64,000 nt of DNA, taken from assembly GCF_000760115.1 (NCBI RefSeq), contig NZ_JNAS01000002.1, positions 186,001 through 250,000 of the forward strand, read 5' to 3'. Positions 36,057 to 44,597 of the stretch are shown piece after piece (position 1 is the first letter of the stretch; the number at the start of each line of letters is the position of its first letter). Made by a program: the position numbers and the translations under genes. Below the pieces are notes generated by a model. The model worked only from the letters and a program-made list of their open reading frames with translations. It was not told where the DNA came from and searched no databases. The stretch comes from Prochlorococcus marinus str. SB. GTDB lineage: Bacteria; Cyanobacteriota; Cyanobacteriia; PCC-6307; Cyanobiaceae.

Positions 36057-37547
36057 TTATTGAATATCCCTTAAAAATTTATCGGCCGTTTTTAAATGAT
36101 TATTTAATTTTTCCTCTGACATTTTATCGAGATTTCTCGTTAACATTGCCAGACGATATTGCTTTCTAAAAAAGCTTTCATTATCTTTAATAAATTTCCA
36201 AAATAAGCCATCCCATATTTCACACCATGAGCCACTTTTAAAATTAGACATTTTTTTTACATAATTAGAGCTTGATATATATGGCTTTGTTGAAAAGATA
36301 CCACCATCACTAAACTGACTCATTCCGTAAACATTTGGGACCATAACCCAATCATAGGAATCAATAAACATTTCCATAAACCATTTATAAACTTGATTGG
36401 GGTGAATTCTACATAGAAGCATAAAGTTGCCAATAATCATTAGCCGCTCAATATGATGACAATAACCAAATTTAATAATATTTTTTATAACAACGTCTAC
36501 TGGTTCAATTCCTGTATTTCCTTGATAAAAGGATTTTGGAATTGGCTTATCTTCAAAATTCCAAAAATTACTATTTCGCATCTTTGTTCCATACTTTTTA
36601 TAGACGAGGCAAATAAATTCTCTCCATCCAATAATTTGACGAATAAAACCCTCTAAAGAGTTAATAGGAACATTATTATTTTTTGCAAAAAGTAATGCTT
36701 TATTTACTACTAAATCTGGGGTTAATAAGCCGCTATTTAAAAGAGGAGAAAGTAAACTGTGCCATAAAAAAGAATTTTCTTTAGAAATAGCATCCTCATA
36801 ATCTCCAAATAAGAAAAATCTATGTTTAAAAAAATCATTTAACCAATCATCTGACTCTTCAAAATTAGTTGGATATAAAAAGTTATTACTTTCTCCAATA
36901 AACTCAATATCAAAATTGGCTAATGACCTTTCTGCATTAACTACAAATTTATTTTTTTGTAATTTAGGTATATCGGGTATATTTATTTTTTTTGGTAATT
37001 TTTTTCTGTTCATTTCATCGAAACTCCATTTACCACCTTCAGGTGTATCATCAGGATTGACTAATATCTTTTGGCTTTTTCTTTGATTCTCATAAAATCT
37101 CCCCATAAGAGGTTTTTTTGTATTTGATACAAATAAATTTTTTAAATCTTCACTGCTCATAAACATAGGAGAAGGCAAAATATTTAAAGCTAAATTATTA
37201 CTTTCAACAAAATTATTAATCCTCTTCATTATTAAAAAATCATGAGGGTCAATCAGATTTATTTTCTGATATTTATTTTTAATAAATTCCGATAAATAAT
37301 CAACTGTAGAAACATTATTCTTGTTTTCGATATATAAAACTTTAAAGCCAGATATTTCTAAATAATTTTTATATGCGAGCATAGATGCTCTATGAAAAAC
37401 TAACTTATTTTTATGGTTAATTAATTTATGAAATTTATCATTTCCAAAAAATAATGAGTCTTCCAAAATCAAAACTTCACAATTTATTTTTAAGATTGGG
37501 CTTTCTCTAAAAAGTTGATTCGGGAAAATAATTGATACTTGTTTCAT
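36057..37547 (-). CDS. Photolyase/cryptochrome-like protein of the FeS-BCP group, apparently without the Fe-S cluster
   Basis: The 496-residue protein belongs to the deoxyribodipyrimidine photolyase-related group (PhrB/CryB type), which includes prokaryotic (6-4) photolyases. The N-terminus (SIIFPNQLF) is the antenna domain; the C-terminal FAD domain shows [68 protein letters not shown]. The four cluster cysteines known for this group are not seen: the position near residue 349 reads IEPVD, and the usual YCxxC...CPFN segment is replaced by [15 protein letters not shown] near 434-448, with a shortened loop. ATGA overlap couples it to the DUF2256 gene upstream. Confidence 0.85.
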
Positions 37548-37675
37548 CTTTGCGACTTCCTATTACTGCATCTTTTTGAACAGTAGATAACATCATCCCA
37601 ACAGTTTTTCCATTTTTTACGCCACTCAAATGGCCTATTGCAAACAGGACAAGTTTTAGTAGAAAGATTTTTCAA
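37544..37675 (-). CDS. DUF2256 zinc-finger-like small protein
   Basis: This 43-residue frame starts at TTG 37675 and ends with a TGA that overlaps the photolyase-like start as ATGA. The sequence has the pattern [19 protein letters not shown] followed by [10 protein letters not shown]: cysteines at 9, 12, 25, 32 and 36, as in DUF2256, which probably binds zinc. The family is small, basic and often found next to photolyase-like genes (from memory). It begins 3 bp after the stop of the TIGR03643 gene. Function is unknown. Confidence 0.8.
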
Positions 37676-37678
37676 AAT

Positions 37679-37915
37679 TTATAATTTTCTTTTATGAGTA
37701 GACTTAAATCTGGTTGAATCTTTAAGAGCCATATGTTTTGTATTTCTTCCCGAAACTCTCTTTCTCCAGACTTTGAAAGATTTGGGTTTTAAATTTTGAC
37801 GCATAATTTTTATCGCATCCTCCTCTTTTAAACCAAATTGATACTCGATAGCTTCAAAGGGTGTTCTATCTTCCCAACACATTTCTATTATTCTGTCTAT
37901 ATCGATACTTTCCAT
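37679..37915 (-). CDS. TIGR03643 family (DUF2805) protein
   Basis: The 78-residue basic protein matches the TIGR03643 family: IIEMCWEDRTPFEAIEYQFGLKEEDAIKIMRQNLKPKSFKVWRKRVSGRNTKH is the conserved core. It looks like a helix-turn-helix fold with a basic tail, so nucleic acid binding is possible but unproven. It lies 2 bp after the DUF393 gene and 3 bp before the DUF2256 gene, clearly in one operon with the photolyase-like gene. Confidence 0.85.
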   Translation of the reverse strand: MESIDIDRIIEMCWEDRTPFEAIEYQFGLKEEDAIKIMRQNLKPKSFKVWRKRVSGRNTKHMALKDSTRFKSTHKRKL

Positions 37916-37917
37916 AT

Positions 37918-38322
37918 TTATTGTTCACATTGTGAGGTACAAATTTTTTCAATATCGGATCTACCTGTAATTTGAAGTCTATATTTTGCCCAATATCTGT
38001 AAACCAATCTCAATAATGGAGACAATAGCTTAATTTTCAAGGGATAATAAACCCAACCTAAACCAACTAATTCATAAGAATATGCAAGTACATCTAGTCC
38101 CCTAATAATTTCACCATTTTCAATAATCCCATGCAGGTTTGACATAGCTTCTGAATATGAGATGTCATAAAAGAGACTTTGATCATAATCCTTACTATTA
38201 ATATCTATAAATGCAATTTGATTTAAGGTATCTCTTTTTTTAAGAAAATTTGTTTCTCTCAAACAAAGTGGACAACCACCATCGAATAAAAAGGTTAATT
38301 TATTTTTCATATTTTTATTCAA
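37918..38322 (-). CDS. DCC1-like thiol-disulfide oxidoreductase family protein (DUF393)
   Basis: The 134-residue protein has the DUF393 signature LFDGGCPLCLRETNFLKKRD near residue 13, a CxxC motif in a thioredoxin-like beginning, and the later IRGLDVLAYSYELVGLGW. Family members are called DCC proteins after this motif (DxxCxxC). A second possible start is the internal Met at residue 5. It heads the operon DUF393-TIGR03643-DUF2256-photolyase-like. The C-terminus (ICTSQCEQ) carries two further cysteines. The redox partner is unknown. Confidence 0.86.
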   Translation of the reverse strand: MNKNMKNKLTFLFDGGCPLCLRETNFLKKRDTLNQIAFIDINSKDYDQSLFYDISYSEAMSNLHGIIENGEIIRGLDVLAYSYELVGLGWVYYPLKIKLLSPLLRLVYRYWAKYRLQITGRSDIEKICTSQCEQ

Positions 38323-38487: not shown

Positions 38488-38691
38488 TCAATCATCTAGA
38501 AGATGCACTCCTTCTCCTATGTCAGGAGTAAATTTACAATATTTTTCAAAAATAAGTCCAACACCTCTCATTTTTTCTCCTAATTCATCGTTAAATTTAT
38601 TCCATTCTTCGGACTCACGATCAGGTAAATCCCACCCTTGTTTTTCTACCATACTTGTTATTACTGTATAGTCCCATTCTATGTATGCCAT
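38488..38691 (-). CDS. Hypothetical protein, 67 residues
   Basis: The acidic 67-residue protein (MAYIEWDYTVITSMVEKQGWDLPDRESEEWNKFNDEL...) is well formed but matches no family I can name. It has no signal peptide or membrane helix and is rich in Trp, Asp and Glu. It is divergent from trmH across 96 bp and separated from the DUF393 operon by 165 bp containing the inverted repeat, so it is probably its own unit. Confidence 0.65.
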   Translation of the reverse strand: MAYIEWDYTVITSMVEKQGWDLPDRESEEWNKFNDELGEKMRGVGLIFEKYCKFTPDIGEGVHLLDD

Positions 38692-44504: not shown

Positions 44505-44597
44505 GTAGCAATCGCTACTTTTTCGTTCACCCTCATTTGAGGGCGCAGTTCGAGTCATACCATGGAACGGGGGATGGCCGTGTTGTCACATCGAAAC
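44505..44597 (+). promoter_or_regulatory. Structured, relatively GC-rich 5' leader
   Basis: The predicted transcript begins with a hairpin GTAGC-AATC-GCTAC (44505-44518) directly followed by TTTTT, then a second hairpin CCCTC-ATTT-GAGGG (44530-44543), then a purine-rich GGAACGGGGGATGG segment that includes a CCAT/ATGG pairing. The block is far richer in G+C than neighbouring DNA. The first hairpin with its T run could act as an early attenuator. It may also be a small RNA gene. No known riboswitch was recognised. Confidence 0.45.

Follow-up and report, generated by a model that had tools for sequence, protein, structure and literature searches.

Photolyases are usually regarded as enzymes of one polypeptide for which light and cofactors suffice. 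Here we describe a four-gene cluster in which a photolyase gene is preceded by members of two small uncharacterised families, DUF2256 and TIGR03643, and by a DUF393 gene. It lies in a stretch of 64,000 nucleotides of Prochlorococcus marinus str. SB (contig NZ_JNAS01000002.1, positions 186,001 to 250,000; hereafter the window, with a GC content of 31.5% in a genome of 1.67 Mb). Genome size, GC content and the branch of its photolyase point to a high-light type of Prochlorococcus. Two groups of described enzymes come closest to this photolyase. The FeS-BCP/CryPro/PhrB proteins of known structure (4dja, 8ijy, 3zxs and 7ykn) share its two domains, with E-values from 3e-57 to 2e-66, but have a [4Fe-4S] cluster and four cysteines, all of which are missing from the window enzyme. 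The Phr2/PromaPL branch resembles it in combining DPRP (PF04244) and flavin adenine dinucleotide (FAD)-binding domains, in lacking iron–sulphur (Fe-S) ligands and in being picocyanobacterial; it differs in that DUF2256 and TIGR03643 go unmentioned in the accessible sections of PMC9178010 and PMC9426592.

The first of these papers treats the Fe-S-free branch as subgroup M, with 20 members among which Prochlorococcus PromaPL is named, and both state light-dependent repair of (6-4) photoproducts for PromaPL. In PMC9426592 the picocyanobacterial gene is called phr2, the four cysteines are found in one of two Phr2 subclades, and the gene is reported from most high-light and all LLI Prochlorococcus, not from LLII-V; the only neighbour named for phr2 of Synechococcus RS9916 is uvrC. 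Two other picocyanobacterial or cyanobacterial photolyase operons are likewise short: mutT-phr of Prochlorococcus MED4 (PMC2955971), with a photolyase of another class and other partners, and the ultraviolet (UV)-B-inducible two-photolyase operon of Synechococcus PCC 7335 (PMC9649867), whose photolyase classes and partners also differ. The accessible sections on RsCryB (PMC3320616) and the Acinetobacter FeS-BCP (PMC4406064) name no DUF2256 or TIGR03643 neighbours. A literature search covering few subscription papers found, in the text accessible, no link of DUF2256, TIGR03643 or DUF393 to photolyase; the one paper naming both DUF393 and photolyase does so, as far as its accessible part goes, in separate heliorhodopsin gene contexts. 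The earlier note on this sequence had seen in the cluster a candidate for an undescribed system. The photolyase is already known, as a member of the Phr2/PromaPL branch, and falls outside that claim; the part that seems undescribed is the partnership with DUF2256 and TIGR03643 in an operon. These two families co-occur with DPRP photolyases and are repeatedly linked to them, and we see an even chance that they serve photolyases, chiefly those of the DPRP class, as accessory proteins, forming with them a light-dependent repair operon.

The cluster in the window

The cluster spans positions 36057 to 38322 and reads, in the direction of the genes:

37918 to 38322, minus strand: DCC1-like (DUF393) protein with a CPLC motif, 134 aa, TTG start (PF04134, 88.1 bits)
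37679 to 37915, minus strand: TIGR03643 (DUF2805) protein, basic and helix-turn-helix (HTH)-like, 78 aa (TIGR03643, 123.7 bits; PF10985, 111.2 bits)
37544 to 37675, minus strand: DUF2256 protein of zinc-finger type (CxxC...YCSxxC), 43 aa, TTG start (PF10013, 66.1 bits)
36057 to 37547, minus strand: photolyase-type flavoprotein, Fe-S-free, Phr2/PromaPL branch, 496 aa (PF04244, 147.3 bits; PF03441, 31.4 bits)

All four proteins score above the curated cut-offs of their Pfam or NCBIfam families (in bits, PF04134 27.8, TIGR03643 66.55, PF10985/DUF2805 22.5, PF10013 25, PF04244 22.1 and PF03441 27), the DUF393 protein (88.1 against 27.8) with its CxxC present as CPLC. Successive genes are separated by 2 bp and 3 bp and end in a 4-bp ATGA overlap at 37544–37547; the four tightly packed minus-strand genes announced by the earlier note were recovered exactly, down to each gap and the overlap. 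That they would be co-transcribed we infer from this spacing only, because the scans for promoters (22 promoter-like sites against 21.2 expected) and terminators (one terminator-like site against 0.9) stayed at chance and are uninformative either way.

The same genes, order and gaps recur in the rest of our sample of the genus, four genomes in all (L054–L057), except that the DUF2256/photolyase junction of L056 is a 2-bp gap and not an overlap. In the three genomes of another genus of the family (g56), TIGR03643, DUF2256 and the photolyase are adjacent without DUF393, with 75–103 bp before the photolyase; DUF393 is found on the opposite strand at a distance of some 8 kb. The other 11 of the 19 TIGR03643 genomes of the family have their cluster genes at least 15 kb apart or on different contigs.

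Co-occurrence with DPRP photolyases

We sampled 121 genomes of the window's family (Cyanobiaceae), of which 76 have a completeness of 90% or higher. Among the 121, DPRP was present in 62, DUF2256 in 55 and TIGR03643 in 19. DUF2256 occurred in 54 of the 62 DPRP genomes and in one of the 59 others, TIGR03643 in 19 and in none, respectively. Among 249 Pseudomonadota genomes, selected to be at least 90% complete, DPRP was found in 69, DUF2256 in 68, TIGR03643 in 24 (22 of these above the curated cut-off) and PF00875 photolyases in 147. There, DUF2256 was present in 59/69 DPRP genomes versus 9/180 others (odds ratio 112) and TIGR03643 in 23/69 versus 1/180 (odds ratio 90); limited to the 22 matches over the cut-off, TIGR03643 was found 21 times with DPRP and once without. 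DPRP was also detected somewhere in the genome for 27 of 29 TIGR03643 genomes, which were hand-picked from the best 80 TIGR03643 loci described below and include some already known to be DPRP-adjacent. Among 14 control genomes, DPRP occurred in Caulobacter, Synechococcus elongatus and Haloferax, DUF2256 in the first two and TIGR03643 in none.

Shared ecology might produce such a pattern if these were independent sunlight- or UV-response genes, clustered for co-regulation only and not acting on the photolyase. The general family DUF393 is likewise enriched with DPRP in the same Pseudomonadota (53/69 versus 50/180, odds ratio 8.6), so that habitat alone gives some association, and both small families are also found beside class I and DASH-type photolyases. 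However, the odds ratios of DUF2256 and TIGR03643 are about ten times that of DUF393, and the association with DPRP persists inside the 147 genomes bearing PF00875 photolyases (DUF2256 in 59/69 with DPRP versus 9/78 without; TIGR03643 in 23/69 versus 1/78), implying that light exposure alone does not account for it. Neither family was found in any of the 102 Pseudomonadota genomes without PF00875. We consider shared ecology as the sole explanation to be quite improbable.

Gene linkage and gene order

Of the 59 Pseudomonadota genomes carrying both DUF2256 and DPRP, 34 have the two no more than 5 kb apart, where about 0.16 would be expected for 4-Mb genomes. Copies that are not beside DPRP can adjoin other photolyases, of DASH type in G345 (L170), the only one of nine DUF2256 genomes without DPRP where the surrounding 7 kb contained a photolyase, and of class I type in G282, G280 and G165. 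Runs of four genes, in which DUF2256 and DPRP stand together with two further photolyases, were observed in G285 (L177:395-5208) and G333 (L182:2419-7000). A putative DUF2256–photolyase fusion in G327 was discarded, its long open frame having resolved into two overlapping frames.

For TIGR03643, we examined the best 80 loci from a profile search of genome contigs, whose titles point to Gamma- and Betaproteobacteria (one merely to a proteobacterium) and of which 54 span at least 19 kb. Within 6 kb, DPRP was present in 13 of these loci, a class I or DASH-type photolyase in 15 and either of them in 24; DPRP stood within 300 bp in 11, and DUF2256 was in the locus in 14. When neighbours were clustered into families, leaving TIGR03643 and its antisense frames out of account, class I/DASH-type and DPRP photolyases came out on top (15 and 13 loci), the next family reaching 12. 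The 13 DPRP-bearing loci span about seven genera, five of the loci being from Polynucleobacter species.

The order of the genes varies with the lineage: DUF393-TIGR03643-DUF2256-photolyase in the window's genus, TIGR03643-photolyase-DUF2256 in Polynucleobacter, DUF2256-TIGR03643-photolyase in Leucothrix, photolyase-DUF2256 with a convergent TIGR03643 on Acinetobacter plasmids, and a photolyase divergent from TIGR03643 in Marinicella. These varied orders argue for repeated assembly and are hard to fit to one inherited or transferred operon. Among plasmids in PLSDB, whose gene table is incomplete, TIGR03643 was seen with neither photolyase nor DUF2256 nearby in Vibrio, Pseudoalteromonas CF6-2, Nostoc and Calothrix, and with DUF2256, DPRP not being nearby, on a Pseudoalteromonas THAF3 plasmid. 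The earlier note had named recurrence of the small families near photolyase genes beyond cyanobacteria as its test; such recurrence was found across Pseudomonadota, with linkage in several orders.

The case is different for DUF393. It is adjacent to the cluster in 5/5 genomes of the window's genus, but it occurs in 111 of the 121 genomes of the family, against 62 for the DPRP photolyase, and it lies within 5 kb of another cluster family in just 6 of the 60 Pseudomonadota genomes that hold DUF393 together with any of those families (G156, G165, G199, G240, G291 and G380). DUF393 is thus probably a weak, mostly lineage-specific neighbour and not an essential part. The functional module claimed by the earlier note keeps DUF2256 and TIGR03643, which recur with photolyases, and loses much of its ground for DUF393, which is family-wide and rarely linked.

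The photolyase

Both the PF04244 (DPRP) and PF03441 (FAD-binding) domains of the window photolyase pass their cut-offs, and its nearest solved structure is 8ijy (E 1.8e-66). At the four Fe-S ligand positions it shows the pattern P, gap, gap, E, with no ligand cysteine left. Comparison of 88 DPRP proteins separated 51 with all four ligand cysteines from 37 with none, and in 37/37 of the latter the first ligand cysteine is replaced by proline. In a phylogenetic tree, the 37 Fe-S-free proteins form one side of a single branch with a Shimodaira–Hasegawa-like approximate likelihood-ratio test (SH-aLRT) value of 100, the window protein inside; this tree was built by a quick method with no bootstrap, flagged long branches, ligand columns kept and PromaPL not among its rows, after removal of duplicates, of frames shorter than 400 aa, of L024, which is truncated, and of L001, the row that equals the window itself. 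The earlier note had expected a FeS-BCP-type flavoprotein, which does not fit the loss of all four ligands: judged by its sequence, the enzyme is of the Fe-S-free prokaryotic (6-4) photolyase type, in the sister branch already known as Phr2/PromaPL.

The Fe-S-free clade contains 34 proteins of the window's family, two from Persicobacter (Bacteroidota) plasmids and one from Marinicella marina (L162). Its presence in Bacteroidota and Marinicella suggests, from the tree, that the photolyase may have been transferred between phyla in the past. The genes outside the window's family are located at L072:6995-8494 and L073:7001-8488 (Persicobacter megaplasmids) and L162:8393-9901 (Marinicella).

The photolyase could be typed as Fe-S or Fe-S-free in 59 of the 62 DPRP genomes of the family. 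DUF2256 accompanies 22/25 Fe-S and 30/34 Fe-S-free enzymes, and TIGR03643 is found in 15/15 genomes of the window's subclade, in 0/19 of the other Fe-S-free subclade and in 4/25 with the Fe-S type. The presence of the two families follows DPRP and is independent of the Fe-S cluster. Insertion of that cluster was considered as a helper role and rejected, DUF2256 being equally common with both enzyme types. The Fe-S-free branch of picocyanobacteria, inhabitants of an iron-poor ocean, offers a natural control for cluster-dependent functions.

The two small proteins

The window DUF2256 protein has the five cysteines described in the earlier note, but only four of them (C9, C12, C32 and C36) are invariant in the 15 sequences compared, together with K7, W18, R19, K20, W22, W26, V29 and S33; the motifs CxxC, WRKxWxxxW and CSxxC are fixed throughout (the L041 frame was left out of the profile). 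Its AlphaFold model, with a predicted local distance difference test (pLDDT) score of 85, contains two short strands and one helix and would correspond to a small zinc finger; the best Foldseek matches, YacG (4tma) and an FCS finger (2w0t), fall short of significance. YacG is a DNA gyrase inhibitor zinc finger, which we take to be the same family as DUF329. Its chains make up the top four Foldseek matches (E 0.26–0.53, the first with a probability of 0.91), and superposition gives a VIA Z of 3.3 and a root-mean-square deviation of 2.3 over 36 residues. The TRASH clan lists both DUF2256 and DUF329 (PMC4047054). Against this likeness, the window protein stays below the YacG cut-offs (12 versus 25.5 bits in Pfam, 9.7 versus 83 in NCBIfam) and the WRKxWxxxW core is peculiar to DUF2256. 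In PHROGs, DUF2256 reaches an HNH endonuclease family (0.0002, 21.9 bits), and the sequence profiles of DUF2256 and TIGR03643 find no match below E 0.1 in the PDB. DUF2256 is also reported to be frequent among bacterial proteins of at most 50 aa (PMC11796252).

The TIGR03643 protein is modelled with less confidence (pLDDT 76, tail below 50) as a helical, HTH-like bundle, with predicted helices at 3–15, 20–27, 31–41 and 44–54. Its fold matches are weak and mostly to HTH domains, none being significant (lowest E 3.0; the best VIA Z, 4.1, is at a level common among unrelated models), and in PHROGs the window protein reaches a family of unknown function (0.0044). Over 33 sequences, 22 columns are invariant and packed in RIIEMAWEDRTPFEAI, in the first helix and loop, and in the tail motif WRxRVxGRxxKH, whereas helix 31–41, the would-be DNA-reading helix, is the variable part.

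These features bear on a regulatory role, in which TIGR03643 would be a DNA-binding repressor or activator, DUF2256 its zinc-dependent co-regulator and the operon autoregulated by light or UV. Weak resemblance of the model to the HTH domains of LsrR, sigma region 4 and TrpR, among others, is what one would expect from such a regulator; the location of TIGR03643 far from photolyases in many genomes fits a factor acting in trans, and its phage-borne copies fit as well. Nevertheless, a variable recognition helix beside a strongly conserved first helix and tail would suit a protein that contacts DNA or other proteins in a general way better than one that controls specific sequences; moreover, the protein, with 78 aa, is without a sensor domain, and its genome-wide presence tracks DPRP rather than photolyase genes generally. 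We find a regulatory role unlikely, although our choice of an accessory role over it is not strong, resting as it does on the pattern of residue conservation.

Viral copies

TIGR03643 is carried by 79 viral contigs (L203–L281), several of 170–380 kb and some exceeding 200 kb. Within 4 kb of these copies, DPRP occurs once and other photolyases never; TIGR03643 being nearly always found there without a nearby photolyase, it can work without one. A search with PF03441 in 50 of the 79 records gave 0/50 and missed one viral DPRP found by the dedicated DPRP profile, so that this null speaks about other photolyase classes only. Thymidylate synthase lies within 4 kb of TIGR03643 in 19/79 contigs. DUF2256 is present in 37 viral contigs (L282–L318), one of them with DPRP, and its viral neighbours recurrently resemble, by the look of their sequences and unconfirmed by family search, SSB and Erf-type recombination proteins. 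One viral contig of 42.7 kb (L264, identical to L313; L264:3908-5988) carries DPRP, DUF2256 and TIGR03643 arranged as on the Acinetobacter plasmids.

A flavodoxin-fold gene, similar to the PF02525 protein of L278, accompanies viral TIGR03643 on the same strand and within 4 kb in 37/79 contigs; the median gap of these pairs is 2 bp, and it is at most 30 bp in 19. This recalls a redox or cofactor role, whereby the small proteins and DUF393 would maintain the flavin in its reduced state or insert FAD or the antenna pigment, an idea to which the three invariant tryptophans and the near-invariant tyrosine of DUF2256 and the CxxC of DUF393 also lend themselves. Yet relatives of the phage flavodoxin-fold gene were found in none of the best 80 bacterial loci (phmmer, E 1e-5), the linkage of DUF393 is weak, the small families occur independently of the Fe-S cluster, and SePhrB, an Fe-S relative, is obtained from E. 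coli with FAD, Fe-S cluster and activity (PMC9178010). Redox or cofactor support appears very unlikely.

Possible function

Since the small families track photolyases across distant bacteria, they are probably unrecognised helpers of light-driven repair. By analogy with the activity reported for relatives, the photolyase would repair UV photoproducts with the aid of FAD and blue light. The DUF2256 zinc finger and the basic, HTH-like TIGR03643 protein most likely act at DNA with the photolyase and would help it to find, open or leave lesions where the DNA is occupied by replication, gyrase or RNA polymerase, and would not supply cofactors; DUF393 would have joined the operon in the window's lineage. 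The importance of the enzyme itself in a related organism, Synechococcus RS9916, where disruption of phr2 made UV-B survival about 1000-fold lower (PMC9426592), counts in favour of such a repair operon. A narrower version, in which DUF2256 and TIGR03643 are dedicated partners of (6-4) photolyases that open access to the lesion in living cells and form a conserved, as yet unnamed module from cyanobacteria to Gammaproteobacteria, we put forward only tentatively.

Several observations weigh against an accessory role, beginning with the scarcity of photolyases near the viral copies. In bacteria, just 5 of the 23 Pseudomonadota genomes with TIGR03643 and DPRP have them within 5 kb of each other, no photolyase exists within 6 kb in 56 of the best 80 TIGR03643 loci, and eight of the nine DUF2256 genomes without DPRP have none in the 7 kb around DUF2256. 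Conversely, 46 of the 69 Pseudomonadota DPRP genomes are devoid of TIGR03643, and Haloferax has DPRP without DUF2256. The Fisher tests of co-occurrence count genomes as independent, with shared ancestry uncorrected. The structural matches of both small proteins are not significant, and the literature search found no experiment on a DUF2256 or TIGR03643 protein. Finally, phr2 of RS9916 raised the UV survival of repair-deficient E. coli (PMC9426592) and SePhrB made in E. coli is active, as mentioned above (PMC9178010). Neither DUF2256 nor TIGR03643 was found in the E. coli control genome; photolyase activity in such a host implies that the helpers are not strictly required. If the accessory role is true, cellular photoreactivation has accessory factors so far not looked for, and two uncharacterised families gain a testable role.

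Evolutionary history

The earlier note had suggested that the cluster was acquired by transfer. Transfer of the entire cluster finds no support, as TIGR03643 trees separate the window's family from the proteobacterial genes. Whereas the Fe-S-free photolyase clade spans the window's group, Bacteroidota and Pseudomonadota, the TIGR03643 of Marinicella, which stands beside an Fe-S-free photolyase, groups with the proteobacterial sequences and apart from the window's family. This conflict indicates that the partners probably paired up more than once. With its 78 aa, TIGR03643 gives two trees of low resolution, in which no more than 10/104 and 11/103 inner branches are starred as resolved; L001, L028, L046 and matches below 60 bits (80 for viral rows) were left out, and about three quarters of the proteobacterial rows were dropped from the second. 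The window TIGR03643 is up to 67% identical to phage copies and 57–65% identical to those of other genera of its family, a closeness to phages that we do not read as transfer because few forks of the trees are resolved. The GC content of the cluster is 0.281 against a window mean of 0.315, a value as low being found in 6% of 2.27-kb windows, and it falls within the range of four other genes measured nearby (0.268–0.344).

Two further features of the window were observed. An open reading frame of 67 aa (38488–38691, minus strand like the cluster), with no family match over cut-off, is located 165 bp upstream of the four genes. The sole match of an Rfam scan of the window is a glutamine-II riboswitch, unrelated to the cluster, at 44521–44578 on the plus strand (67.5 bits; gathering score 33).

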